A stretch of DNA of 64,000 nt, from contig OX393557.1 of assembly GCA_947650365.1 (NCBI GenBank), positions 29,823,359 to 29,887,358 on the forward strand. Direction: 5' to 3'. The stretch comes from Chamaelirium japonicum. Taxonomy: Eukaryota > Streptophyta > Magnoliopsida > Liliales > Melanthiaceae. The translations under genes and the position numbers were made by a program. Each line of letters opens with the position of its first letter. Position 1 is the stretch's first letter. Below the pieces are notes generated by a model that saw only the letters and a program-made list of their open reading frames with translations, ran no database searches and had not been told where the DNA came from. Below are positions 7,281-56,590 of this stretch, piece after piece.

Positions 7281-7750
7281 TTTTTTAGGGTAAATTACAC
7301 TTTGCCCCCCAAAGTTTAGCACAAAAACATTTACCCCCCTATAGTTAAAAAACTACATTTTGTCCCCCTTCAATTCAGCTTTGTTAAGATAAAAATTACC
7401 AAACGAGGAAATTAGATAGTTGACAAAAAGGGGTATATATTGTGCTAATATTTCAAACTTTAGGGTGTGATCTGGAACAAAATAGAGTCGATGGCCTACA
7501 CGAGCGCAATAGTAATTTTTGTATATAGCCCCCTACAAAATGATTTTTTATATAAACTCCTGTAATTTCTAACCGACAAGGGCAAAATGGTGTAAAAGTA
7601 GCCTTCGGAGTTTTTTTTACAAAAGAGAGATTGCTGAGGAGTTTAGGTAATTTGAAAAGACAAGGGTTTATATATAAAATAAATACATATAAGGGTTCTA
7701 TATGCAAAAATCTCAAAATAGAAAGAATTATAGAAGGAAAATTTTATTCA
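7281..7750. other. No gene; AT-rich repeat-like DNA
   Basis: The stretch opens with a GGGTAAATTACACTTTG / CCCCCC pattern often seen in dispersed plant repeats. I could not set boundaries or a family. Confidence 0.35.
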
Positions 7751-8143
7751 CGAGTAATGTTACAATAAGCTATGAGCTACAATAGAAGAAAATGAGCTAC
7801 GATCAAAAATGCCACCCTATAAGTTTTAGAATTTGTTAAAATTTGGTGAGTGTGCTTTCTAGGATAAGATGATCATCTTAACTAATTTTCAACAAATTCC
7901 AAAAATTCTAGGATCATTAGACGTTGCTAAGAAAATATAACGGTTACTATGGACGGTAGATAAAACGTCTACCATTTGATGACCCTAGAAGTTTTAAAAT
8001 TTGTTGAGAATTGATGAGAATGATCATCATACCCTGGACAACACACCCACCAAATTTTAACAAATTTCAAAACTTATAGGATGACATTTTTGATCGTAGG
8101 TCATTTTCCCCTCTTGTAGCTCATAGCTCATTGTAACATTCCT
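7751..8143. mobile_element. Foldback MITE, Mutator-like
   Basis: Long imperfect inverted arms make up most of the element: the left arm reads AATGTTACAATAAGCTATGA and the right arm is its complement ending TTGTAACATT. The 10-bp sequence ATTTTATTCA flanks it at 7741-7750 and 8144-8153. No coding sequence. Duplication length and long arms suggest a Mutator-like MITE. Its central sequence resembles the foldback element at 40147-40507. Confidence 0.75.
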
Positions 8144-8428
8144 ATTTTATTCATATCCCAAAAATCTGTAACTAGCTTCCGTCTCCCATCCGTTTCACAA
8201 TAACTTACTCACAAATTTTAAAATATCATTTATACCCTTATCTTATATCCCACATTCAACTAAAACCTAAAACACAACATTTTGGGCATCGACTCTAATT
8301 GGAAAGTAATTGAGCAGTGGCAACGGCATGGCTATGATGTCATTGGCAGCGACATTGGCAACATGGCTCGAAGATCTCATTTCTCCATACGAGATCTAAC
8401 CCCTCTAGCAATGGAGAAAGAAGAGGAA

Positions 8429-8465
<37 letters not shown>

Positions 8466-8723
8466 CAAGTCATCAATGAATGGCAAATAATCAAAATAAC
8501 CCTCCTCACATCCCTATACTTATGGTCTTCACCATCGAAAAGGGATGGGGTATGATCAAGATGGGGCTAGCATTTAACTCGGGTGGATTCAATGTGGGGT
8601 GTAAAATAGAGGGATGTTTTTGGGATAGAAATTGGGTATAATCAAAGAAAAAGGGGTGTGTTCAAGTTTGTTGGTAACATGGGCTAATTACATTTTTTTG
8701 GGGTATGAATAAAATTTCCCTTA
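8144..8723. other. No gene; contains a (TC)16 microsatellite
   Basis: A pure TC run lies at about 8431-8462. The rest shows no recognisable gene or element. Confidence 0.5.
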
Positions 8724-9008
8724 GGATCTGTTCTTTTAGTTTCCTCGAAAATAAAATAAAGAAAACAATTTATGTAGAAATTTATTTATGCAAAATTTCT
8801 TTCCATACCGTTTAATTTTCTTTATTCTTTTAGTAGAAAAATAAAAGAAATAAATCAAACGCAGTAAAAATCTATTTTTTTTTAGTAAAAAATTTTTTAA
8901 AAAATTCTACATATTTAGTAGGAAAATAATATTTTTCCTGTTCGCGGAAACCCAATTTTTGCTTGTTAATCCGTTCCCGCGGTTATTTTCCGCGCAAAAA
9001 ACAGACCC
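8724..9008. mobile_element. Short MITE with GGRTCTGTT termini
   Basis: The left end GGATCTGTTCTTTT and the right end AAAAAACAGACCC are inverted copies. TA lies on both sides, possibly the target duplication. At 285 bp and AT-rich it is non-coding. It sits just upstream of the host gene at 9185. Confidence 0.65.
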
Positions 9009-9083
9009 TATAGAATCCTTGCGCAATCTAATCGGAGCTTCGGTTTGGTCAAACTAACCGGCACCGAGACGCACCCATACTCA

Positions 9084-9089
9084 CACGTG
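9084..9089 (+). promoter_or_regulatory. G-box CACGTG upstream of the host gene
   Basis: CACGTG lies about 100 bp before the start codon at 9185, in GC-rich DNA that looks like a promoter or 5' leader. G-boxes bind bZIP and bHLH factors. No clear TATA box was seen. Confidence 0.4.
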
Positions 9090-9184
9090 AGCTGCACGCC
9101 CGCACCTCCCGCCCTCCGGCGGTTCATGGTTGTCCTCCGCGACTGCTCAGAGACGCTAGAGGCATAGAGGGGTGAAGATTCGAG

Positions 9185-12100
9185 ATGGGTGGCGGTAGCC
9201 CGGCCAGCAGCAGCGGAGAGGAAGACGGGGACGCCGATTGGAGGGCGGCGATCGATTCAGCCGCCGCCGTCGGGATCAGTGCCTCGGGCTCGAATGGGCC
9301 CACCCAGCCGCTTCCGGGCTCGGGCGGCTCGACCCAGGACGACCCCCACCACGAGCAGCAGCAGAAGGCAGAGAACCCCGGGCTTCTCAAGCTCTACCAG
9401 ATCAAGGTATTTCCCCATTCCCTCTCTTCTGTACGGAAGCAAAGCCGCAATAGCATGCTTGTAGGGTTTTTTTGATGATATTGATGGATCCTTGCCAAAC
9501 CCATGATCGGCAGCTTTGTTTGTCAGAGCCCATTTGGTTTATTTGGACAACTAGGGTTGAGCGGTAATGCGGTAGGGATGGTCATGATCCACGTAAAACC
9601 CACAATCATTGGGGTTATGGGTGATGCGGCCTGTTGTGTTGTTCAGCCAGCTATTAATAGTTTGTATTTGGTTATGGGGAATTAGTGGGTTGGATCACTT
9701 GTTTGGTTCTTGTTAGTAGCTTGTGTTCATGGTATGGGTGTTAGTGGGTTAGTGGTATGAAATGGGATGAAGAATGTGTTTTGTCCTTCTTCTGAAGAAA
9801 ATTCTGTCTTCACTACTCTTGGAGGTCCTTTCTCCTTCGATTGAACCATTAACGATATTTGTTATTGTAAATCTCAATCTCTAATCTAGGAATGAATGTA
9901 AAACTTCGTATTGGAGCCCGGTTAGATCTGGCGGATGGTGGATTTCAAAACACAAGAGTATGATCCATAAGCGCGAGCTCTTCAAGGTCATGTTCTTTTG
10001 GGAGGAAATGTCGGTGGAAATTAATCCACCTGTTGAAATGGGTTCAATTTTTGTTTAATCCCGTTAAGTGAATGAAAATGAATCCACCTGCAGAAATCAA
10101 AGCTTCCAAAAGGTGGATGTGAAGTCCTTCTAGAATAGGATGGGCATTTCCACTCCACCTGGGGAAACATATCAGGCGACTCAAGCGGACAGGATTCCTC
10201 TTTGTCTCCAGCCACCCGAGTGCCATGGTAACGATTCTGGCGAGCCGACCGCAAAACCACGAGTTCCAGCCCTTCGAGCCTCCTTTGCGAATATCCACCC
10301 CCCCCCCCCCCCCCCCCATTTTTTACGATTTTGTGTGGATCTCTCTGACTTGAGTTTCAGAGGTTCTTCCTATCACATTGATTTATTCTTGGATTGTTCA
10401 TAGCCTCTTGTAAGGTATATGTCATCACTTTATTCCTTTATGTGTTTCATTCGTTTTGGATTGTTCTTGCATTCCTATAGGTTTATCATTCGTTCTTAAA
10501 ATCTTAGGGCATCCAAATGAAAAGTTGTGAATGTTTGCCTAACCTTGGTGATTACTTATTTTAACTACATAGAATTCATGTGTATTACCCTATGCTATCA
10601 AAGTCGGGACTAGTCCCCGACTAGTCACTGGGCGGCATTTTGCCGACCGATTTATTTTGATTTTTTCATTGCTGGGCGGTAGCCCGACTAGTCCCCGACT
10701 AGACCCGACTAGCCCGACTAGTCCCCGACTAACGACTGCCGACTAGTCCCCAGGCAGCATTTTGCAAGCAAATTTTTTTTTGAAAGGAGTCTTTGCAAGC
10801 AATTTTGTTTGGATTTTTTTACATTGGCTCAAAGTCTTGAGTAGCAAGACTCACAACTATGGCTCTTCCCTGTAATCATCTGTTGAGCACCTGAGAATCT
10901 CCGATAAAAACATAGACAAATAATTAGTTTATTTGTTGATATTCATATAACCCTATAATCAAAATTGGGGTTGTTCACTGATTAAACATCATCAAACAAA
11001 CATTGTGATGAATTCTTAGTTCTGAGTCTTTTGGCATGGGCATGAAGCCAATACAACTGTGTTCTGTTAGACTGTTACTTATGTATTTATACCCATGTTG
11101 TGAAGTGTGAAGGTATGTATTGTTATTAACCGACTAATATCATATACTTATTGACATTTATACTAGTTCATATATCATATATGTTTAGGGAGGGGGGGGA
11201 GGGGTTAGAATAAGTTTTGGCCGACTAGTCCCGAATTAGTCCCGACTAGTCCCGACTAGTCCTAGTCGGCCCTTGGCCGACTAGGGCCGACTACCGACTT
11301 TGACTGCATAGGTATTACCATATTCACATGTTTTAATTACTAAATGTCATGCAACTAGTGATGCGGTAGTTATAGGATTTTGTGGTTGTCTTCTTTATAT
11401 GTTGTCAACAAACGAACTGCGGTAGTAAGAATGATAAACATTAGGATTGTTTGGCTTGTTTTGATTGAGAATGTGCAATTTTCATTTCCATTTCCTTTGC
11501 CAAATTGAACATGTGAAATAATACCGTACTTTACTTCCGCTCAAAAGAACATATAAGTTATAAGTGAGTGGAAATGTAAGTCAGTGGACACAAATCACTT
11601 AAGTGAGTGGAAATGCAAAGATTAGGTAGGGATTTTGCAACCGCCCTGGAGGCAATATTCAAATTACAACCAAAGTTAACAATGAGAGACCTCGAAGTCA
11701 ACGCTTTCGAGTGGAAGAGTCTAGAGTCTTCTTCAATAGGACCAAGTGGCTCTATCTGAACGAGAACAATTCTATTTGAATATTTTCCATCTTTACTAAT
11801 GAAAATTCTAATGGTTGGGCATATCATGCATAATACATTATCAATCTTGTATTTGCAGATCAAGTCAACAACTGTATATGATCAGATTTTATTTTTGATA
11901 AAATAATATTTCATGTTTTCCATGTTTAGACTGGTATGTATCAACACAACATACACAGAGATACAAGCTATGTAAACTCCATACCCCAAGAGAGTGCAGA
12001 AATGTAATTTACTTGTTCCAAAGTGTGTATCTGTGGGGGAGGATTTCGTCCGTCGTACGTAACCCCCCTCCAACAGTCGATTGAAGGTTTGACTCTTCGA

Positions 12101-15100
12101 GACGTGGCTTGCTGTGAAGTGCTAAGGGGTCGAGTGCTGAGCTGTCACACAGTCACTGTGGAGATAGAGAATTGACACAAGATGTGGTAATGAAGTTTGG
12201 CCGAAGCTTATGCCTTCGTGCGATAAGGCGCAACCTTTGAATCCACTATCACTTAGAAGAGCTAAGCTAGTCTCAACAGGCTGAGAAGTGCTTCTTACAA
12301 GTATACAGAGGGTAGAAAGGGTTTGGAAGTCTAAAGATCAGAAGACTCAGAGAGCTCTGGAAAACAAAAAGTGGAATAATTAATTTCGGTATGGATTATT
12401 TACAGGATTGACTATATATAAGGGTTTGAAAATATTCTAGGAATATTCCCTGAAACATCAGGAGTTTAGGTACTTATCCGGGGGATTTATCAATCTCCGG
12501 ATGGCATGTACGGACCCCAGACAGGGCTGCGGGTCCCACTGTCGTCTTCGTGGGCCCCAAGCGGGGCTGCGGGTTCCACTGTCGTCTTTGTGGGCCCTAG
12601 ACGGAGCTGTGGGTCCCACTGTCGTCTTCGTGAGCCCTAGGCGGAGCTACGGGTCTTGCTGTCGTCTTCGTGGGCCCCAAGTGGGGCTGTGGGTCCCACT
12701 GTCATCTTCGTAGGTCCCATGCTAGATTTATGATTATCCAGAGTTTTTCTGAAAAATTATGTTAAAAAATTTATATTTTCACCATTTCTAACAAACTGCA
12801 AAATTTCCAAACTCTAAATATTTCCAAGAAATATTTCTATATTCAGAGTTTCGAAATATTGGTCAAAATAAAATTTTTGAACCTTGATTAGTGGGATAAA
12901 GGACCACTCATTTTGATGCTCAAATGTTGAATCCCCGAAATGTTGTGACTGTAGCATGGTTTGAGTGTTCATTTGATTATGAACCGCTTTGAATTTTGGC
13001 TAATCCAAGCCGACACACCGATTCAAACCTAAATTGATTTAGATTTTGGCCGGTCTAACCAAAAAGCCTCACCAAACATGAAATATGATCTGATTAGGAT
13101 CCCATTCGTCCAAATCATCATTTTGAATTCAAAACAAGTTGAATAAGATCTGATTTAGTAGAGTCAGGCCAAAATCGGGCCTACATAGGCTAAATCAATC
13201 CTGAATCAATCTGAATTGGCTGAATCAGACCTAAATCAATAAATCAAACTCAAAGACCTTATTTAACAGAATCAGGCCTAAATCATGCCCAAATAGGCTG
13301 AATCGATCCTAACTCAACCTGAATTGACCGAATTAGACCTAAATCATGAATCGAACTCAAATCAGTCAAATTGGAAGTGATTTTATGATTTCTTATATTT
13401 TATAAATATGGTTGAATTCGGTCTTGCCTGAACCGACCGAATTGGTTCTTTTTTTCTCGATCCAAACCCGGCCCGACTCTTAAAGTTGGACTGCATTCAA
13501 CTTACCCCAACCTCAAGAAGAGAAGATCGAGTGTCCTTGATATTCCTAACAAGCTAAACCACCTGCTTTTCTAGGCCCTATACCTTTAAACCTTCCATCA
13601 AATATTTCACTCCAATAGAGATCACTGAAAGAAAGGATCATGATTTATGATATAATTGTGATGAGAAATTTCAACTCGACTACCTTTGCCAAGCCCAAAA
13701 GCTTTTCCTCATGGTAGGGGTTTGGGCGATGCATCTGAGGAGTTCACTCAAGTCAGGGAAAAAGAGAAGGTCCTTGTATGCAATGGTTGGAAGACACGAC
13801 CCTCGAACTATGGAACTACAAGGACAAGTTTAACACCAAACAATCACATATTGATTCTAGGAGTACCCACAATTTTGAGGACACCAATGTAGTTAAAAGA
13901 ACAGAAATTCAAGTTGCAAAGGGGGCAATTTGAAGTGATGGTGGCCAATGTAGATCGTTTACTAAGGAGGGTGTTTGTGCTTACCTTTAATCCTACAAGA
14001 CATTACCATCACTACTGACTTCTTTACTTTGCCGTTGGTGGGTGTGATGCAAACACCAATTGGCCCGATCTTAGGGAATTTCTCTCAGATGGTGAGCTTT
14101 GATAAGGAAGAAGGCATCACCTGTAGGGAATCAATTCAGACTAGTTGGATATGTTCGATGACAATAACTTTAAAAGAATGGTAAAAAAATATTGTAGGAG
14201 AGTTAATCTATTTAAATAGAGTACACAAGTAATACAGACAACAATAAGAATTTTCAAATGCCTTTAAGTACCAAAACTAATTCATCTTCCATTGGTTGAG
14301 GAAAGTAAACCAATAAATATATACCCTACCAACACCCTCATTAGCAAAAATTGAGATAGAGAAGTTCATTAAGAGATGCTTGAGTCAGGCATCATTCAAC
14401 CAAGCAACATCCCTATTTATGTTCAGTTTTAATGCTGCACAAATCTGACAAGAGTTGATGGATGTGTGTGGATTTTGAATAATTAAGCAATGTCACTAGC
14501 AAAGGCATTTACCCTATTCCAAGGTTGATGAGTTGTTGGCAAGGTCTTACATTTGGTTTCATGTATGGTTTCGGACCAAGCCGAAATTGAAATTTCAATC
14601 GAATGCTCAATTTTATTTCAAAATGGTAAAAAAATGGGGGTTTTGATATTTTTTGAATTTTTTAAATTTAAGTCTTATATAGTTGTGTTACTTGTGTATA
14701 CATATTTACATGAATTGTTTTAAGAAAACACACACCAAGCACATAGCAAGCTTGTACTATGAACCACGATAAGCTGGGTGGAATACCAAAAAACTAAATT
14801 TTTTTTTTGATAATCATCAAATTTTTATATATATTTACACGTATTTACGTTGATTTCATCACGAAGAAATTATAATCAATTCTACTATCGTCTAAGTAAT
14901 TTCGTCGAAATGCCCCCGAAATTTCGTTAAAATGGCCCGTGAAACCAACCCACATATTTTAAAACCACCTAGTTTTGGTGGGCCCCAGTTTTCGTTTAAA
15001 ATATTGTCGAAATTCACTCGAAATGCCGAAACCCAAGTCCAGGTTGAAACAAAAATATCTTGCCGAAATTTCACAATTTCGACCGAAATTTGAAACCATG

Positions 15101-24795: not shown

Positions 24796-25431
24796 GTTCG
24801 TTACACGACTCTTTCTTGATTTTTTGAATAAGTTATGATTTTGTGTAAAAATCATGATTTATGTGTTTTAATCTATGATTTGTAGACACGGACACGGGTG
24901 TCGAGTGTCGGCACGGACACGGGAGTCGGACACGGCTCCATCATAAAAGATGGATACGGAGACACGTGGGTATATACTATGAAGCACCGACACTCTCGGG
25001 ACCTTAACGTGTCCGTGTCCGACACGTGTCGGACACCGACACTCGTCCGACACTCTCCGACACGTGTCGGACACACCAAAAAACGTGTCTTCTATGAAGA
25101 GAGGTTGTCCGACACGTGTCGGATGCGTGTTGGAGCGTGTCGGATATTACCGGAGATGTTTTTTTCTCATTTGAAGATGTTAGGTTCTTGAGATTGCGAA
25201 TATTTCCATCAATGAGCCGGATATGGAGGCCGTGGTCTTCACGTCGATGGTGATGATGTGGTAACACTTGACGTTGGCCTTGATGGATGATGATTTTTTG
25301 CGTTTTCTATTTGTTTTTTTGTGTTTTGAAAGTTTGAAACTATACACTTGAATCATTTATGATGTTTGTTGGAGATTTTTTTAGTTAACTATTAGCATTA
25401 TGTTTGATTATAAATCATAATATAAGTCTTG

Positions 25432-43488: not shown

Positions 43489-44175
43489 TGTGGGTGCAAA
43501 TTTTGGCAAGAAATCTGCAAATCAGCGGGACCCACAGGCCCTGCCTGGTGGGCCCCCGAAGACTACAGCGGGACCCACCGGCCCTGCCTGGTGGGCCCCC
43601 GAAGACTACAGCGGGACCCACCGGCCCTGCCTGGTGGGCCCAAGAGCCTGTGGAATCCCCCCAGGAGACGGTAGCGGGGTCCACCAGCTTTACCTGGAGG
43701 ATCCCCAGATACGGCAGCAGAGACCGCCATTTACCCCGGAGTTCCTCCCCAGGAGTTCTATAAATAGCAGAACCTTCGAATGTAAAAAGGTCCGAAAATC
43801 CGATTTCCACTTCTGAGATCTGATTTTCAAAAACCAGAGCTCTGGATTTCAGTTTCCATCCCCTCACTTCCTCTCTTTGATCTTCTTCTTATCTTCGAAG
43901 AGATCAAAAGGGTTTCAGTGGTACTCGGCCTGTCGAGATCACTTCAATACAAGTGTTAGTGAATTCGGGTTGCTCCCTATAGCACGGAGACGTAGGCTTC
44001 GGCTGAACTCCGAAATCAGATCTCTCATGTCAACTCTCTGATCGCTTATCTCTCTCTGCTTGTGTATTGTGAAAGACAACTCCAATCGACAGATCGAACA
44101 TCGATCTTTTATTCGAACCTCCAAATTGACTAGTGCGGCGAAGTCTTCGGGTCGGCACGAAGATTTTCCCCCACA
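43489..44175 (+). repeat. 5' LTR of the Tat element (three 43-bp units)
   Basis: 687 bp, TGTGGGTGC to CCCCCACA. Three copies of a 43-bp GC-rich unit (CAGCGGGACCCACCGGCC...) lie near the start. A TATAAATAG box near 43759 precedes a leader-like region. Confidence 0.92.
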
Positions 44176-44342: not shown

Positions 44343-46180
44343 ATGGCGAGAACTAAGCATCAGGGTCAACCAGAAGGAAGTAATACTCGACAACCTCGTC
44401 CTGAGACTCGTTCAATGAGTCAAAGGCTCAATTTCGGACAGCCCCTTGCTGTCCCCGATGTGGGGGTTCACTTAGGAAGTGGAAGATCAGTCGATCGACC
44501 GATCGCCCCTCTTCATCAATCAATTGGGCAGATTGTTCCTGCTGCTGAGAATCCTCCATCGATATATCAAATATCGACAGTCGATTTTCAACTGCTCCAA
44601 TTGGCAAAGAAAAACGCCACCCTCACCGCTGAGAGTGACACTCTCAAGAAAGCAGCTTCCGAGGCTGGGATCGCTCTTCCTATCCCCTCTACAAGTGAGA
44701 GGGTCGATCTTCCACGACAGTCAATCCATTCCGAGCAACGGAGGTCAATGGGCACTGCTGCCTTCGAGAGGATTCGTCGCGACCCAATTCCCTCCGCTGC
44801 CCCATGGAAGCAGAGTGTTTGGGATCGCCTCGACGATGAGTCCTCCCAATCCTCTTCTGGACGCAACTGCGACAAAAAAGCACCTTCAAAGCCTGACGTA
44901 CCGAGAAGACACCAGATGAAAGGAGCTCCTTCAAAGAGTAGAGTATCCCCTTCCATTCCACTTCAGCGTGGACTTGGATTGGACCTTCGCCACCGACTCC
45001 AACCTGCTGAGACTCAGAGGCTTGAACAAGACCTCTCGATCTTGCCTCTCGATCTGCACCCGAGTCGAGGACATGGTCGTAGAGAAGGCTATTCATCTGC
45101 CGGACCTCTCCATCGAAGCCTGTTCGAAACTACATTTCCAAGGGGATGGAGAACTCCCACTCTCCCCAAATTCAACTGCCTCAAGGGAGATCCGATTCTC
45201 CATGTACTCGCCTTCAAGCAAGCTTTGACGCCGCACGAAGAAGAGAATAATGTACTCTGTCGCACCTTCGCGGGAAGTCTCGACGAACCCTCTCTCGATT
45301 GGTACCATAATCTCAGAGCTGGGTCCATTACCCAGTTCAATATTTTGGTCAATCTTTTTGTGCAGCATTATCAGCTGAACATGAAGCCGAAAAAGAATCT
45401 CGACTCCCTATATCGATTAAGAATGGGTGTCGACGAGAGTCTCCGTAGCTTCACAAGGAGATTCCGTAACGAGCACGCCGCCCTCTCCGGGAGACATTTG
45501 GATGATGAAGCCATTATGTTGGCTTTCCAGAATGCTCTCCGCTTTGATCTACACATCTATAACGACTTCATTCGCAATCCCCCTCCTTCCCTGGGTTCAA
45601 TGTTTGATCGAATTCAGAGGGAGATTGAGGTTGAAGATAATCAAGTTGCCTGAAAAGGGCGAGAGTCAAAGCGAAGGCCTGCGGAGAGAGAGGCTCTGAA
45701 GTATGCTGCCAAAGCTCACAACGCTGAGGCAGCAGCCCCCCCTGCTAACAAACGGTCGAAGAACGATGGACGACGATCCCCGACGAAGACCACTTTCACT
45801 GAGTGGAATTTGCCGGTCGAACAGATCCTCGACCGCATTCAACATGAAGTATTCCTTCGAAGACCGAATCCTCTTCAACCGAATACTAAATTCATTGCTG
45901 ACAAAACGGTTTATTGCGACTTCCACCGAAGCCACGGCCATTCCACCGATCGGTGCTATCGGCTAAAATTTCACCTCGAAGACTTGTTGCGAGAGGGTCA
46001 TCTACAAGAATTCACCAAAGATGGGCAAGATCAACGCCGATCCTCCGCAAAAGGGAAAGAAGCATGCTGGGTCCATCAAATCTCTTCCAATCGATCTTCT
46101 CTTACTGTGAATGCCAACGTCTTCGGCATTCACGGATCATTGCACAATCAAGCGGTGACCGGGAAAGAAGTTGATCGGTA
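44343..46180 (+). mobile_element. gag region of the Tat element
   Basis: A long frame starts MARTKHQGQPEGSNTRQPRP. The retrotransposon gag core lies around 45150-45560 (FTRRFRNEHAALSG; DDEAIMLAFQNAL) and a zinc-knuckle-like stretch (CDFHRSHGHSTDRCYRL) follows near 45915. This is the capsid protein of the particle. Confidence 0.85.
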
Positions 46181-46249
46181 AGTTTGACGTATCTTCCATG
46201 TTCGTGCTGCTACGAACAAAGGGGACACATGGATCGAGAAGCCTATCGA

Positions 46250-46800
46250 GGGTTTAGCTTGGCCTTCCATCGTCTTCAACGACTCAGACCTTCAAGGAGT
46301 TCATACTCCACATCGAGACCCCCTGGTCCTAAAGCTCCTTGTTGATGGAAGCACTGTCAATCGAATCCTCATCGACACCGAAAGCTCCATCGACATTATG
46401 TTCTCAGACTGCTTCAAACGTCTGGGACATAAATATTCGACCCTTGATGTCGTCCCAACGGTGATTACTGGTTTCAACAGTGAACAAAGCATCACTATGG
46501 GCGAATCAAGGTTCACTCTCGATCTCAACCGAGAGACTCGAGTCTCGGTGAGATTTGCTATCGTCGAAGGAACATCCAGCTACAATGCCATTCTCGGGCG
46601 ACCATTTCTCCACCAGATAAATGCCATCTCTTCTCCTTATCATCAACTCCTCAAATTTGCAACAGGAGAAGGTATTATCTGTATACGAGGAGATCAACAA
46701 GCCGGGAGATCATGTGAAGCCGCTGCTGCAAAAACAGATCGTAAGATCAATATTGCCCCTCCAAAGCGGTCACGAGACGAAGCTGGCCCCTCTTCCAAAT
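46250..46800 (+). mobile_element. Protease region of the Tat element
   Basis: Retropepsin-type stretch with an active-site-like segment (ILIDTESSIDIMF) and the downstream YNAILGRPFLH motif shared by Tat elements. Confidence 0.8.
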
Positions 46801-46859
46801 AGCAATCAAAGGAGATTCCACTGATCGAGCCCCCACTAATCGAAAGGGAAGCCTCACCT

Positions 46860-48360
46860 TCAATTGAAGAAATCATCCCAATCAATATCGGCAGTGTAGA
46901 TCTCCATCGACAAACATTTATTGGTACCGGTCTTAGCGACGCAGAAGCGCGAGACATGGTATCCTTCCTTTAGTCCAACATCGATGTCTTCGCCTGGTGT
47001 TTTGAAGATATGCCAGGAATCAATCCAGATGATGCCTGCCACCGGCTCGCTATCAAAGAAGAAGTAAAACCCGTCAAGCAAAAGCCACGCACAATACGAC
47101 CAAAACTACAAATTGCAGTTCAAGAAGAGATCAGTAAACTACTCGCGTCAGGCTTCATCCGTGAAGTAGAGTATCCTACTTGGATCTCCAATATAGTTGC
47201 TGTTCCAAAGAAGAACGGGAAGGTCAGAGTGTGCATCGACTTCACCAACCTCAACAAGGCTTGTCCCAAAGATCCATTTCCTATGCCAAGGATAGATAGA
47301 CTCGTCGATGCCACTGCTGGCCACGAGTTACTATCTTTCATGGATGGATACTCCGGGTACAATCAAATTCCACTTCACTTTGATGATCAAGAGAAGACAT
47401 GCTTTGTGACTAGCCGGGGTCTTTACTGCTATAATGTAATGCCATTCGGTCTCAAAAATACTGGCTCTACCTATCAAAGGTTAGTCACAAAGATGTTCGA
47501 AAATCAGACCGGTCACAACGTCGAAGTCTACGTTGACGATCTCCTCACAAAGAGCTCCACTCGAGGAAAACATCTATCCGATCTGGCAGAAACCTTTCAA
47601 GTCCTTCGGAAGTACCGTATGAAGCTCAATCCAGCCAAGTGTGCTTTCGGAGTTCAATCGGGCAAATTCCTGGGTCATTTTGTGACCAGGAGGGGCATTG
47701 AAGCCAACCCCGACCAAATTCGAGCCATCCTTGACATGCCATCACCTACGAATCGAAAGGAAGTTCAGCGCCTCACTGGAAGGTTAGCAGCCCTCAATCG
47801 GTTAATCTTGAAGTCTTCTGACAAATGCAAACCACTCTTCGATAAACTACGAAAGGCGGATACATCTGGATGGAGTCCAAGTTGCGAAGAAGCTTTCCAA
47901 GACATCAAGAAATATCTGGTGCAAGCTCCTATCCTGACGGCTCCACTTCCAAAAGAAGATCTAGGGCTCTACCTTGCTATCATCGATCAAGCAATCAGTG
48001 CAGTCTTAGTCAGCAGAAGAGAAGGCATCGAGCGTCCGGTCTACTACATCAGCCATACTCTTCTTCCGACTGAAACTCGCTACTCAAAAACTGAGAGGGT
48101 CATTCTGGCCTTGCTTACTGCATCACGTCGCCTCCAACCCTATTTTGTCTCTCATCAGATTACTGTCATTTCAGAACACCCACTCAAAGATATCGTTGAC
48201 AAAGCTGGTCGAGCTGGTCGAATGACCAAATGGGTGATCGAAATGAGTGCCCTGGGGATTCAATTCGAACCTCGCACTTCAATCAAAGGACAGGCAATTG
48301 CTGATTTTCTAGCTGACTTTCCAGTTGAAGACCCCATAACCTGGGAAGAAGACATTGATA
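46860..48360 (+). mobile_element. Reverse transcriptase and first RNase H of the Tat element
   Basis: RT motifs in order: VRVCIDFTNLNKACPKDPFP, DGYSGYNQI, NVMPFGLKNTGSTYQR, EVYVDDLL, KFLGHFVTRRGIEANP. RNase H follows with KTERVILALLTASRRLQPYF and RMTKWVIEMSALGIQFEPR. Order and motifs match gypsy pol. Confidence 0.9.
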
Positions 48361-48419
48361 TGCGCCTTGAAGATGAAGTTGGTCCCCCGCTCGATCCGGT
48401 TATAAAAACCAATCCAAGC

Positions 48420-48890
48420 CTTGAGGCTATTGCTCCAATTCCTCCATGGAAGCTTTATACTGATGGAGCTTCAAGTGCGATCGGTTCGGGAACTGGGATA
48501 GTCTTGATATCCCCCGAACTCGATCATCTTCAGAAGGCTACTCTTCTCAGGTTCAATGCCACCAACAACGAAGCCGAATATGAAGCACTCATTTCCGGAC
48601 TCGAAATGGCTGAATCTCTGGGGGTAGATCGAATCATCGTCTACAGCGATTCCCAGCTGATTATAAGGCAAATCAACGGAGAATATACAGCTCGTGAAGA
48701 AAGAATGCAACTCTACCTGGCCTTAGTATGATGTCTTCAACAATGTTTTACTAATATTGATTTCGTTCAAATCCCAAGAGCAGAGAATCGAGAAGCAGAT
48801 GCCTTAGCCAATGCTGCCTCTGTTCTTGGAGACTCTCTCGGAGGAAGACAAATACAAATTGATTATCAAGAAGTACCCAAGACCACCCCT
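48420..48890 (+). mobile_element. Second, archaeal-type RNase H of the Tat element
   Basis: WKLYTDGASSAIGSGTGIVL, ATNNEAEYEALISGLEMA and VYSDSQLIIRQINGEY are the hallmarks of the extra archaeal-like RNase H that Tat-clade elements carry between the first RNase H and integrase. Downstream IPRAENREADALANAAS completes the fold. Confidence 0.9.
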
Positions 48891-48959
48891 GAACAATAGA
48901 TCCTTGCTACTACAAAAAGATCTGGGGGTGAAAATCAACTGATACTGAACCTTACCACT

Positions 48960-50213
48960 ACACGTGAGCTCGAGGATTGGAGACAGTCAATTTTCGACTT
49001 CTTCAAACATGGCAAAATGCCAGAAGATCCAAATCAAGCCCGAAAACTTCAAAGAAAGCTTCCATGCTATATCATTCAAGGAGAAGATATATACTTCAAA
49101 TCTCACAATGGGATGTTGCTCAAGTGCATTGGCCCTGAACAAGCAAAGGCAATCCTGATTGATATCCACTCTGGGGCCTGCGGGAATCATTCGGGAGGAA
49201 GATCACTTGAAGCCAAGATAAAATTGCAAGGTTACTACTGGCCAACAATGGCAAGGGATGCTCACCAACTGGTTCAAAGGTGCGAGGCATTCCAACGACA
49301 CGCTCGGGCTATCCATCTCCCTGCAGATGAGCTTCACCAACTGTCGAGTCCGTGGCCTTTCCATCAATGGGGATTCGACTTCTTGGGTCCCTTTCCTCTA
49401 ACCCCGAGCAAGAAGAAATATCTACTGCTGGCCACAGATTACTTCACCAAATGGGTCGAAGCTATGCCACTCTTCCGAGAGACCGACAATGAAGTGATCA
49501 AGTTCATTCGACACAACATCTTCTCAAGGTTTGACACACCTTAAATTCTTGTTGCTGACAATGGAGCTCAATTTGACTCCGACAAGTTCTGAGAATTCTG
49601 CCTGAACAACGAAATCAAGCTTTTTTATTCAACTCCAAGATATCCTTAATACAATGGTCAAGCTGAAGCCTCCAATAGAGCTATTCTTGGTATACTCAAA
49701 AAGAAACTCAACGACAAGAAAGGATTGTGAGAACAAGTCCTACCTGAAATTCTTTGGGGATATCGCACAACTCCGAGAAGATCAACAGGGTTCTCACCTT
49801 TCCGTCTGACATATGGATCGAAAGCAGTACTTCCGACAGAGAATATATCAAATACTTTGAAGACCAGAGCAGTTGAAGAAGGGATCAATAAAGAGCTTCG
49901 CGTCGATGATCTGGATTTCTCTGAAGAACTACGAGATCGAGCATCCCTTCGTGTGGCCAAGTATCAACAAAAGATCAAGCAAGCCTACGATCTAAAGGTC
50001 TACAAACGGCAATTCCCAATTGGCAGTCTGGTCCTCAGAGCAGTCTTCTACAACACGAAGGAGCACAGCAGTGGAAAACTAGCTCCCAACTGGGAAGGAC
50101 CCTACATTGTGGAATCAGTAGGAGGCAAAGGGTCTTACCGACTGATTTCACCAGAAGGAGAAAGACTGCCACGAGCTTGGAATGCTAGGCACCTCAAATT
50201 GTTCTATCCATGA
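48960..50213 (+). mobile_element. Integrase region of the Tat element
   Basis: Contains an HHCC-like N-terminal region (HSGACGNHSGGRSLEAKI, YYWPTMARDA), the catalytic core (WPFHQWGFDFLGPFP, YFTKWVEAMPL) and a C-terminal part ending WNARHLKLFYP at 50213, as in other Tat elements. Confidence 0.85.
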
Positions 50214-50324
50214 TGTAAATACCATGATGAATAAAGTTCTCTTTCAAATATTCAAGTGTGCAAATGTTCAGCTTTTCAATTCAAGTTCTGAAGCAGTTTC
50301 AAATCATCTACATTCAAATTACCA

Positions 50325-50665
50325 GGTCGTTTAACTAGTTTGGGTGTTTGAGTTGCGACTCGACCCCTTACAGGTAAATGTTAAACGATTTCGGGTTGTG
50401 CTACAACACAACCTTCAAATTACTACGTCTATTTAACAGGTTTGGGAGTTTTATGTTGCAACACTATCCCTTACTTATAACTGTTGAATGGCCTTCAATT
50501 TCAAATTCAATATCGTCTAACAGGTTTGGGTGCTTGAGTTATGACTCAACCCCTCACATACAAATGTTAACGATTTCAAGTTGTGTTATAACAACCTTCA
50601 ATTTTCGAGTTACTTAACAAGTTTGGGTGATCGAGTTGTGACTTGACCCCTTATATTCAAGTGTA
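50325..50665. repeat. Four degenerate repeats of about 95 bp downstream of pol
   Basis: A GTTTGGGTG..GAGTTGYGACTYGACCCCTTA block recurs at about 50338, 50438, 50522 and 50619 with considerable divergence. It separates pol from the 3' end of the antisense gene. Confidence 0.65.
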
Positions 50666-50845
50666 CGAATATTTAATCATTCCAATACTATCCAGAACAT
50701 AACATTCAAAGGATTCAATACCAGAGACATTCAATTTCGAACAACCAAAAAGATATCTTTATTATCAAAAAGGATCAAATACAAAGAGTGAGCTTTTGTG
50801 TGAAGAGTTTACAGGTACAACAAGCAAAAAAGAAGATAGAATACA

Positions 50846-53715
50846 TCAGGGTTTAGCCACACTATGAGCACATGACTTCTCTCCTTCAGATCCACCGCGA
50901 GCTTTGCTCGCCACAGAAGCCTTGGAAGATCGGACGCTGCTAGCATGGACCCTGAGGGCTTCCACCGCATTCTTGGCCGTCTCCCTATAACTCGCGCATT
51001 CAGCACGCATATGCTCCAGCTCCTTTTTGAGAGCCTCCTCCTTGGCAGTTGAGGCTGTCTCCTTAGCAGCAAGAGCGGCATCCCTTGCAGCAAGTTCAGC
51101 CTCCAACTCCTTTATTCGAGTCACGCGATTAAAGAATAAGTTCTCGATCTTGAAAAATCGATTCTTCAACTCCTCGAGCTCGTGACCCCGGGCCTCGTAA
51201 CTGTTCTGCCAGCCCTTGCTTTCGAGCTTCTCCTTGCGAAGAGTCTTGATCTTAGCTTTCAAGGCCTCCTTCTTGGAGAAGAGAAGTTCCCTCAGCTTAT
51301 CCTTCTCTTCGTTTGCAGCCTCCAATTCAGCTGACAAACGTGATACCTCAGATGAAGCTTCCCGTTCGCCTGCCTTCCTGAAGAGCTTGCTCGCAAATTT
51401 CAAAACTGCTGAGTTCTGCAAATAGACAGAAGAGTTAGAATTATTTTGAAGATACAACTCAATGATCGATCAAGCAGATGCACATACCACTACTTCAAGC
51501 CTGTCGAAGGCTTCATCCAGAGTAGCTTCCGGAAGGTTGCAGAGCTTCCGGATCACACTAGTTGGGTGGTTGATGTCAACCTCACCCAAGTTCTTTATTT
51601 TCTGAGTCATGCCAACAGGCGTACCTACAATCAACACCAAAGTTCAAAGAGTTAGAATAAATTCAAACTTTGAAGGCAAGACAATCAAGGCAAATTAGTG
51701 CGGATACTTGAGACATCGACTCGAGGAGCCTTTCCCTTCCCACGGTCGGAGCTCTTACCCCGAGGGGTCGACTTCTCCTTAGTGGGAGTTGGCTCTGGCT
51801 GGGGTTGGGGAGCCCCATCGCCCACACGGCTCTCTCTCTCCAAGTGAATAGGAGAAGGAGCACCCTGGGGAGGTGAGACCCCCCCTTCCTCTTGCTGCCC
51901 GCTTGGTTGATCGAGCCCCGCCATGAGAGCAGCAACTTCCTCAGCCAAAGAGCGCGAGGGGGGTGGAGGTTGCTTAACCTCCAAACCCCCGCTCGTAGTC
52001 GCACCTTCGATACGAGGAACTTCGGGAGGCATTTGATCGAGGGGCGTGGGGTTGCTTCCAACCCCACCACTCCCCGAGAATTTGATCTTTAAGCGCATCG
52101 GGCGCTTCTTCAGCTCCTCGAAGTGATAGGCGGGAACCACCTTGTGGCCGTCGCCTTCTGCATCCATCACCCCTTCCATGCGACGGGCCTTATCCTCATC
52201 GATGGGGATAGGTTGAGAGTCTTCTTCTTCTTCTTCACCACCAGTGGGGGTGGGAGGAAGGTCATCCCCACCACCCCCCTGTCCTTGGTCACCACCAGTG
52301 GGGGTGGGAGGAATTTCTTCCTCACCACCCCCATTTCCACCGTCCCCATCAGTGGGGGTGGGAGGAAGATCATCCTCACCACCCCCATCTTCATCATCAT
52401 CGTCGTTGCTGTTGCTACCATTTTCAGCATCTTCTTCTTCTTCTTCTTCTTCCTTGTTTTCCTTCTTCTTTTCTTCTTCCTCTTCTTCTTCATCTTCCTC
52501 TTTCTTCTTTCCTTGTTCCTCATCTTCCTTCTGCTTGATGAGGATTTTCCTCTTCTTCGCTGGGCCCCGGCGTATCACCAACTTCTCCTCAGTGGTGGGC
52601 AATCAGCGCCTCGCACCATAGGCCTTCTTCTCGACCCGAATCTTTCTGGTAATCTTGCCCGACTGAGGATCCTCCTCATAGTCGGAGTACAAGACTTCGT
52701 TGTCTTCATACCTGGTCTGTAATCGATGGAGGAGATTGGCGTTGCCATACCTGACTGGGCAGTTCGAAAACTGCTTCCATGATCTGGTACCACAGGTCAA
52801 TTCCAGGAACAGGTTGTCGATGGCCCCAACCCGCTCAGAAGGCCAAGCCAGCTCACCTCCTACATAGTACATCTTGATCTCCTTGTTCACGTCGGCGCGA
52901 GTAGTCTCGGGCACTGAAAGTGGAGTCCAGGCACCAGCAACTGAGAGCGGCCACTCAGTGAAGAGTTTGTCAGAAGGGACCGTGTCAGCGAGGGGGCGCA
53001 AGGCAGAAACACTTGTCAGGTTGAAGAAAGGGCTGTCTTTCCTCGAAGCCCATCTATAATGATAGAAAAAGTAGCCCAATTCAATCCGGGCCTCTTCGTC
53101 GTCCGGGATGCTGGAGTAGCACTCCCTTAGCTCCTTCTAGAAATCGGATTCTACGCGGCAGAAGGCGTAGATTATCCTCCATGCATTTCCGGTGAGCTGT
53201 CCTAGGCAAAGGCCGGAGGTATTTAGCAGCCTCGCGGCGAACGGCAGCAGTGGAAGACGCAGTCCGCAGTTCAACTGGCCCACTGAGACCACTGTCCCCA
53301 TCACCTACTCTATACTGGCAATATTAACGAACACTGTCCGTTTGTCGATGCCAAACCCGGACAGGACCCCTGACAGAGATGACTGGTTCTTCCCCTCTGT
53401 GAAGCACGCCAGCAGTTTTTACCACTTTGCCCTCTTCGTGTCGGTGAGCTGGCCACCCGTGTTGTAAACATAGGCAGGCTCCTCCGTCAGAGACAACAAA
53501 GGGCCCAAAACAAATTTCACCTTCGGAATATGCTCCGGCCTTGATGGAGCAGAGGCAAATCCAACCCCTATGTGCCTCTTGCCCAACTCGCCCAACTCCA
53601 TGAGCGCTGCTTTGCCCTTGCCGCGACCTTTGGGGGGGGATGATTCTTCAGCAATCTCCTTCCCCTTCCTCTTGGACGGAACTGCGTTCTTCTTCAAACT
53701 GCCAGAAGACGCCAT
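50846..53715 (-). mobile_element. Antisense accessory gene of the Tat element
   Basis: Minus-strand coding-like DNA runs from an ATG at 53715 to a stop at 50846, convergent with pol. Parts in order: a basic N-terminus (KRKGKE, KGRGKGK); a globular domain (GYFFYHYRW, GELAWPSERVGAIDNL, CGTRSWKQFSNCPVRYGN) reminiscent of the plant 'putative gypsy-type transposon' family (PF04195); a highly acidic stretch; a Pro-rich tract; and a 200-residue coiled coil rich in Glu, Lys, Ala. At least two gaps between open stretches have consensus splice borders, so it may be spliced. It has some breaks. Antisense genes are known in some Tat elements such as maize Grande; the function is unknown. Confidence 0.7.
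52236..52400 (-). repeat. 54-bp coding repeats in the antisense gene
   Basis: CCAGTGGGGGTGGGAGG recurs at 52241, 52295 and 52349, exactly 54 bp apart, giving an 18-residue repeat with a PPTPTGG core between acidic runs. Confidence 0.8.
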
Positions 53716-53816
53716 TTGACCGATCAAAAGAAAACAGAGAACGAGAGATTGGGAGCTAAAATTCTGGACTTCGAAAAATTTCTGAAAGCGTGAGGCGAAA
53801 ATGACAACCAGAGAAG

Positions 53817-53824
53817 CTTAAATA
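53817..53824 (-). promoter_or_regulatory. TATA-like box of the antisense gene
   Basis: TATTTAAG on the minus strand about 100 bp before the ATG at 53715. Confidence 0.45.
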
Positions 53825-53854
53825 TCCTGAGGGAATTGGCACACAAATCGATAG

Positions 53855-53903
53855 GACACGTGTCATCACCATATCAAATCATATGTTTTTGCAGGTACAC
53901 GTG
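53855..53903 (-). promoter_or_regulatory. Two G-box/ABRE-like sites upstream of the antisense gene
   Basis: GACACGTGTC (53855-53864, a perfect palindrome) and CCACGTGT on the minus strand (CACGTG at 53898-53903) lie 30-80 bp upstream of the TATA-like box, a promoter-like arrangement that could respond to bZIP or bHLH factors such as ABA regulators. Confidence 0.45.
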
Positions 53904-54169
53904 GCATCTATCCGTAGCAAGCGCAAAACCAGGCGAACCGTCGGACCAGATGAAGCGTCAGACCGCCGGTCCAAGTGAGCCACCGGTCCAAGCGAACCAC
54001 CCGTCCAAGTGAACCGGATTGCCGGTTCAAAAGGCTCACCTGTCCGATCAAACCAAAAATTTAAACAGAAAAAATCAAACTCCATCAACGTTCAAGACTC
54101 TGCCCGAAGATCACGAAGAAAAACAGGCTATACTACCGCCTCGACTGGGCAGGTTCGAAACTTAACCTC

Positions 54170-55680
54170 GAGTGACTGTATTTAACCGATCGATCAGACT
54201 TGACCGATCGGTCAAATTCATTCGATCGGTCGATTTTCTACTGGATCAAACAAAAAACTTTGCTTTTTGCCCGATCCCACCAACCTCGACCGGTTGAATT
54301 TAACCGATCGGTCAGACTTGACTGATCGGTCAAATTCATTCGATCGATCGATTTTCTACTGGATCAGGCAAAAAACTTTGCTTTTTGCCCGATCCCACCA
54401 ACCTCAACCGGTTGAATTTAACCGATCGGTCAGACTTGACCGATCGGTCAAATTCATCCGATCGGTCGATTTTCTACTGGATCAGGCAAAAAACTTAGCT
54501 TTTTGCCCGATCCCGCCAACCTTGACCGGTTGAATTTAACCGATCAGTCAGACTTGACCGATCGGTCAAATTCATCGGATCGGTCGATTTTCTACTGGAT
54601 CAGGCAAAAAAACTTTGCTTTTTGCCCGATCCCGCCAACCTCGATCGGTTGAATTTAACCGATCGGTCAGACTTGACCGATCGGTCAAATTTATCCGATC
54701 GGTCGATTTTCTACTGGATCAGGCAAAAAAACTTTGCTTTTTGCTAGATCCCGCCAACCTCGACCGGTTGAATTTAACCGATCGGTCAGACTTGACCGAT
54801 AGGTCAAATTCATCCGATCGGATGATTTTCTACTGGATCAGGCAAAAAACTTTGCTTTTTGCTCGATCCCGCCAACCTCGACCGGTTGAATTTAACCGAT
54901 CGGTCAGACTTGATCGATCAGTCAAATTCATCCGATCGGTCGATTTTCTACTGGATCAGGCAAAAAACTTGACTTTTTTCCCGATCCCGCCAACCTCGAC
55001 CGATTGAATTTAACCGATCGGTCAAACTTGACCGATCGATCAAATTCAACCGATCGGTCGAATTTCTACTGGATCAGTCAGAAAACTGTGTTTTCTGACC
55101 GATCACTCCAACCCCGACCGGTTGAAATTAACCGATCGGTCAAACTTGACCGATCGGTCAAATTCAACCGATCGGTCGAGATCAGTCAGAAAACTGTGTT
55201 TTCTGACCGATCACTCCAACCCCGACCGGTTGAAATTAACCGATCGGTCAAACTTGACCGATCGGTCAAATTCAACCGATCGGTCGAATTTCTACTGGAT
55301 CAGTCATAAAACTGTGTTTTCTGACCGATCACTCCAACCCCGACCGGTTGAAATTAATCGATCGGTCAAACTTGACCGATCGGTCAAATTCAACCGATCG
55401 GTCGAATTTCTACTGGATCAGTCAGAAAACTGTGTTTTCTGACCGATCACTCCAACCCCGACCGGTTGAATTTAACCGATCGGTCAAACTTGACCGATCG
55501 ATCAAATTCAACCGATCGGTCGAATTTCTACCGGATCAGTCAGAAAACTGTGTTTTCTGACCGATCACTCCAACCCCGATCGGTTGAAATTAACCGATCG
55601 GTCAAAATTGACCGATCGGTCAAATTCAACCGATCGGTCAAAATTGACCGATCGGTCAATTTTGACCGATCAGTCAGAAG
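54170..55680. repeat. 118-bp tandem array dense in GACCGATCGGTC palindromes
   Basis: About twelve and a half units. Unit landmarks (GACCGGTTGAA or variant) fall at 54288, 54406, 54524, 54643, 54762, 54880, 54998, 55116, 55224, 55342, 55460 and 55578: period 118, with one 108-bp unit. Two subtypes exist: the first seven units carry TTTGCTTTTTGCCCGATCCC, the last five carry TGTGTTTTCTGACCGATCAC. Each unit holds three or four copies of the palindrome or near variants. 118 is not divisible by three, so frames here are artefacts. Confidence 0.92.
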
Positions 55681-55817
55681 TTGGCCGATGAAAATCTTAT
55701 TTTCAAAACACTAACATTCAATAAAAACTCCTCTACATGTGTAACAGGGGTCATCAACTTTGCACCACGAATCCAAGCCAGCCAAAGTGGCCTCTTAGCT
55801 AACTTGGAGGGGGTAAC

Positions 55818-56590
55818 TATGGGTGCAAATTTTGGCAAGAAATCTGCAAATCAGCGGGACCCACCGGCCCTGCCTGGTGGGCCCCCGAAGACTACAGCGG
55901 GACCCACCGGCCCTGCCTGGTGGGCCCCCGAAGACTACAGCGGGACCCACCGGCCCTGCCTGGTGGGCCCCCGAAGACTACAGCGGGACCCACCGGCCCT
56001 GCCTGGTGGGCCCCCGAAGATTACAGCGGGACCCACCGGCCTTGCCTGGTGGGCCCAAGAGCCTGTGGAATCCCCCCAGGAGACGGTAGCGGGGTCCACC
56101 AGCTTTACCTGGAGGATCCCCAGATACGGCAGCAGAGACCGCCATTTACCCCGGAGTTCCTCCCCAGGAATTCTATAAATAGCAGAACCTTCGAATGTAA
56201 AAAGGTCCGAAAATCCGATTTCCACTTCTGAGATCTGATTTTCAGAAACCAGAGCTCTGGATTTCAGTTTCCATTCCCTCACTTCCTCTCTTTGATCTTC
56301 TTCTTATCTTCGAAGAGATCAAAAGGGTTTCAGTGGTACTCGGCCTGTCGAGATCACTTCAATACAAGTGTTAGTGAATTCGGGTTGCTCCCTATAGCAC
56401 GGAGACGTAGGCTTCGGCTGAACTCCGAAATCAGATCTCTCATGTCAACTCTCTGATCGCTTATCTCTCTCTGCTTGTGTATTGTGAAAGACAACTCCAA
56501 TCGACAAATCGAACATCGATCTTTTATTCGAACCTCCAAATTGACTAGTGCGGCGAAGTCTTCGGGTCGGCACGAAGATTTTCCCCCATA
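55818..56590 (+). repeat. 3' LTR of the Tat element (five 43-bp units)
   Basis: 773 bp. The 86-bp excess over the 5' LTR equals two extra 43-bp units. Otherwise nearly identical to the 5' copy. Confidence 0.92.

Follow-up and report, generated by a model that had tools for sequence, protein, structure and literature searches.

Antisense genes have been described in nearly every recently active Retand retrotransposon. In the accessible part of a 2025 survey of Retand elements with recent activity (Vicient, PMC11963269), every case has antisense coding regions in the interval from pol to the 3' LTR, an antisense ORF of the PF04195/TRP28 type is found in 97% of clusters, about half carry tandem arrays, and the antisense protein is suggested to bind DNA and to have a regulatory role. 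An earlier and broader survey, as far as its accessible text goes, reported PF04195 in 23% of Retand elements, described the extra ORFs as highly divergent, and gave a domain order for Ogre and Retand in which a further RNase H follows RNase H and precedes integrase (PMC6317226). Two further systems can be likened by description, from the accessible portions of their sources: the antisense ORFs of Silene Retand, with Transposase_28 in ORF4 (PMC7264820, PMC11728184), and the antisense gene of maize Grande (gene23), for which a 2020 review reports a promoter upstream of the gene and a nuclear product (PMC7264820).

We examined a gene that the earlier note on this DNA had described as accessory, antisense and situated within a Tat element. 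That account holds in outline, with the exception of four of its splice-like borders, its long coiled coil and its host origin. With a probability of roughly 0.85, judged from sequence, the gene is the antisense accessory gene (an extra ORF of the TRP28/PF04195 type) of a decayed Tat-clade Ty3/gypsy element, most likely of the Retand lineage. Antisense PF04195 genes at such a site have already been published, and this copy adds one decayed member to a widespread class of antisense retrotransposon genes without known function.

The element and its gag-pol frame

Within the window, by which we mean the whole 64,000-nucleotide stretch that was analysed, lies a 13.1-kb Ty3/gypsy element with two LTRs. 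The 5' LTR (43491..44173, plus strand; TG...CA) was delimited by blastn against the 3' LTR (55820..56588, plus strand), with the ends set by eye; the pair shares 98.9% identity over 651 aligned bp (blastn; seven mismatches, of which six are transitions), and a 43-bp unit is present in ~2.8 copies in the 5' LTR versus ~4.8 in the 3' LTR. No clean 5-bp target site duplication is found at the ends as set by eye (43491 and 56588): TATTG precedes the first, TAATT follows the second, and the flanks are AT-rich and repetitive. The whole element gave no blastn match to either flank of the window; when the antisense gene, the 5' LTR and the tandem array were searched apart within the window, the sole match was a weak one at 12609-12701, where the opposite strand resembles the LTR in its repeat part (75.8% over 99 bp, E=7e-7).

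The gag-pol frame (44343..50213, plus strand), assigned by Pfam searches of its pieces, contains 11 internal stops, versus 60 and 90 in the other two sense frames. Gag, reverse transcriptase (RT), RNase H, a second RNase H and the integrase zinc-binding domain score above the Pfam cut-offs, and the protease and the integrase core score under them. In addition to RT_RNaseH, the RT piece has a second RNase H (RVT_3, E=5.6e-11; RNase_H, E=1.3e-6) at its residues 494-581, so that the domain order is RT, RT_RNaseH, RVT_3, with Integrase_H2C2 in the next piece. The element thus has, by Pfam, a second RNase H, which would be the additional (archaeal-type) RNase H of the Tat clade; it is placed between RNase H and integrase as in Ogre and Retand. 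In viral contigs, 251 of 281 stretches were confirmed as relatives of the RT piece; each of the 80 listed falls within residues 477-582, which is the second RNase H, and they are therefore uninformative about the antisense gene.

The LTRs (683 and 769 bp), the internal region (11,646 bp) and the region from pol to the 3' LTR (~5.6 kb) are all inside the ranges that PMC11963269, in its accessible part, gives for Retand (315-1,194, 7,380-12,869 and 2,933-6,566 bp, respectively). The place of the antisense PF04195 gene, the long stretch from pol to the 3' LTR and the presence of an array are likewise shared with Retand elements that carry an antisense TRP28 ORF. The elements of that survey were chosen for identical LTRs, whereas in the copy described here the LTRs have diverged and there are 15 internal stops, and its array unit measures 118 bp as compared to 8-100 bp in the survey. 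We consider Retand the most likely assignment on the strength of the domain order, the antisense PF04195 gene and these lengths.

Reading frame and domains of the antisense gene

The gene runs on the minus strand from an ATG at 53715 to a TGA at 50848-50846, antisense to and downstream of gag-pol, between pol and the 3' LTR, which agrees with the accessory gene first proposed. Its proposed exon 1 (51708..53715, minus strand) was delimited by frame and stop counts, Pfam and composition. This frame contains four stops in 669 codons, versus 20 and 32 in the other antisense frames. The stops, at 53421-53419, 53307-53305, 53139-53137 and 52605-52603, are four of the borders, which the earlier note seems to have taken as splice-like, so that this reading of them falls away; the last two borders do resemble GT-AG introns.

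The piece at 53140..53304 (minus strand), flanked by two of the in-frame stops, matches PF04195 (Transposase_28) with E=6e-7 and 30.0 bits, above the Pfam gathering cut-off of 26.2; the match spans profile positions 1-46 of 69 and then meets a stop codon. The domain had been anticipated, and an HMM search of the open stretches, which the earlier note had proposed, found it above cut-off on this piece and no other Pfam family above cut-off on the other pieces scanned. A BAH match on the 177-residue piece (E=0.063, 13.6 bits) was rejected because it lies below its cut-off of 30.8, and the piece at 53084-53323, in a frame other than that of the gene, had no Pfam match. For the 177-residue piece, three stretches in viral contigs and 21 in prokaryote genomes fit the pattern and none was confirmed as a relative, which is unsurprising for a plant gene; it matched no solved structure at E up to 1. 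The single weak match of the C-terminal tail to a solved structure (E=0.04) was taken as chance.

Exon 1 thus contains, in addition to the PF04195 domain and the 177-residue piece, the basic N-terminus (18 K+R versus 9 D+E in 98 residues) and the acidic, low-complexity stretch (34 D/E in one tract of 60 residues, within a 305-residue piece) that had been noticed before; the low-complexity part is repetitive, with 54-bp and 39-bp repeats. The helix-prone C-terminal tail includes a run of 96 residues without P or G. Since 17 of 200 shuffles reached the heptad score of the tail, a coiled coil is possible there, and the long coiled coil of the earlier description is not upheld.

Candidate promoter and introns, decay of the copy, and other readings

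Downstream of exon 1, two candidate introns were called from sequence features. Intron 1 (51625..51707, minus strand; 83 nt) and intron 2 (51416..51487, minus strand; 72 nt) each begin with GT, end with AG and are 65% AT, and the phase stays open across both of them through to the TGA. Between them lies the proposed exon 2 (51488..51624, minus strand; 137 nt, 45 residues), open in the joining phase and without a Pfam match; the proposed exon 3 (50846..51415, minus strand), which encodes the tail, is open to the TGA, and it was equally open in 1% of 1000 simulations. That the phase is kept across intron 1 is weak evidence, because among 12 GT-AG pairs tested there, five do so. No open paper among the matches listed mentions introns of antisense Retand genes, and in the accessible text of PMC11963269 no word starts with 'intron'; we make no claim of novelty for such introns. 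A minus-strand AATAAA, starting at 50763, lies beyond the stop of the gene and is a candidate poly(A) signal.

The candidate promoter (53818..53903, minus strand) was likewise recognised by pattern matches. A TATA-like TATTTAA at 53824-53818 lies ~110 bases ahead of the ATG, and CACGTG sites are found farther upstream, at 53862-53857 and 53903-53898, as had been reported. The claim that the gene has its own promoter is borne out as to the motifs and has a precedent in maize Grande, whose gene23 occupies the same antisense place and, according to the accessible part of PMC7264820, has a promoter of its own, whereas motifs make it a candidate here. CACGTG occurs at nine sites in the window, which is not an enrichment (21 of 100 shuffles reach nine), and pairs of sites within 60 bp of each other number four versus 0.03 expected per window (100 simulations). 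Three of these four close pairs fall in one palindromic tract at 24963-25118, so such clusters arise in other ways too; the tract lies outside the element and contains four CACGTG sites and CCGACACGTGTCGG-like units. A bacterial promoter scan was set aside as unsuited to a plant gene.

From 44343 to 53715, with one frame kept per gene, there are 15 internal stops, 11 in gag-pol and four in the antisense gene. Taking the LTR divergence as a clock, six of seven changes as transitions and the codons as they stand, we would expect 0.3 to 0.6 new stops in the antisense gene, where four are seen, and 1.0 to 2.1 in gag-pol, where 11 are seen. This excess over what 98.9% LTR identity predicts may mean that the copy was defective before it moved or that its LTRs were homogenised later; assembly errors are another possible source of stops. 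Stops are similarly frequent in the two genes (4 in 904 codons of the antisense gene versus 11 in 1956 of gag-pol; Fisher p=0.79), so this copy gives no sign that the antisense gene was specially preserved, and the four internal stops of that gene mean that the copy as assembled cannot encode the full antisense protein.

This inability to encode the protein is one of the observations that would fit a role for antisense RNA instead, whereby the transcript would pair with the genomic RNA and either feed silencing or block reverse transcription; the promoter-like motifs upstream and the poly(A)-like signal downstream would serve such a transcript, and the accessible part of PMC7264820 offers regulation by antisense RNA as an alternative. 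However, only four stops in the 669 codons of exon 1 would be unexpected of a non-coding RNA, as would the retained PF04195 match, and we regard it as unlikely that the RNA rather than the protein is what matters.

Still less probable, to the point of being very doubtful, is capture of a host gene by the element (transduction), which is close to the host-derived regulator of the earlier note. The basic N-terminus, the acidic tract and the two intron-like interruptions are features that one might expect of a nuclear gene of the host. The sole Pfam match above cut-off in the scanned pieces, by contrast, is to PF04195, a domain known from retrotransposons rather than host genes and, in the accessible text of PMC11963269, without reported similarity outside transposable elements; the same text describes transduced genes as mostly sense-oriented. 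That the frames are chance openings in purine-rich, repetitive DNA is scarcely credible: although the acidic part is repetitive and the longest simulated open stretch, 344 codons, exceeds the observed one (305 codons were reached in only 1 of 1000 runs), each of 1000 first-order Markov simulations, which do not preserve repeats, had at least 11 stops even in the best of its three frames, as compared to the four observed, and the PF04195 match counts against chance for exon 1.

The palindromic array and a proposed role for intact copies

We therefore return to an antisense accessory gene of the PF04195 type, and consider how it might act in intact relatives. There a promoter of its own, directly ahead of the ATG, would drive transcription of the gene, and the pair of short introns close to the 3' end of the gene would be spliced; being antisense to the genomic RNA, such introns would survive transposition. 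The basic, PF04195-bearing protein would then enter the nucleus and regulate the element by binding DNA. Identity and mechanism taken together form the best explanation, and we hold the whole with confidence hardly below that given to the identity; a nuclear regulatory role taken by itself, for intact copies, is a tentative proposal at somewhat less than even odds.

A tandem array (54180..55639, no strand assigned; 118-bp unit, 12.4 copies by TRF) lies between the antisense gene and the 3' LTR. It is palindromic, and ACCGATCGGT occurs 25 times in 54180-55700 versus once elsewhere in the window. One speculation, which we rate as a long shot, is that the PF04195 protein recognises the element's own ACCGATCGGT array as a binding platform, for example against silencing; if so, the gene and the adjacent array would co-evolve as a self-recognition pair. 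The candidate introns and the presence of a palindromic array by the candidate promoter are small leads on the function of the class, and the present case settles nothing about it.

Two minor observations concern the same region. The CpG observed/expected ratio is 1.67 in the 118-bp palindromic array (54180-55639), as compared to 0.64-0.80 for the LTRs, gag-pol and the antisense gene; two stretches of the flanks give 0.41 and 0.59. At 53962-54015, close by the candidate antisense promoter on its upstream side, there is a second, small tandem array with a 17-bp unit and an ACCGGT core.
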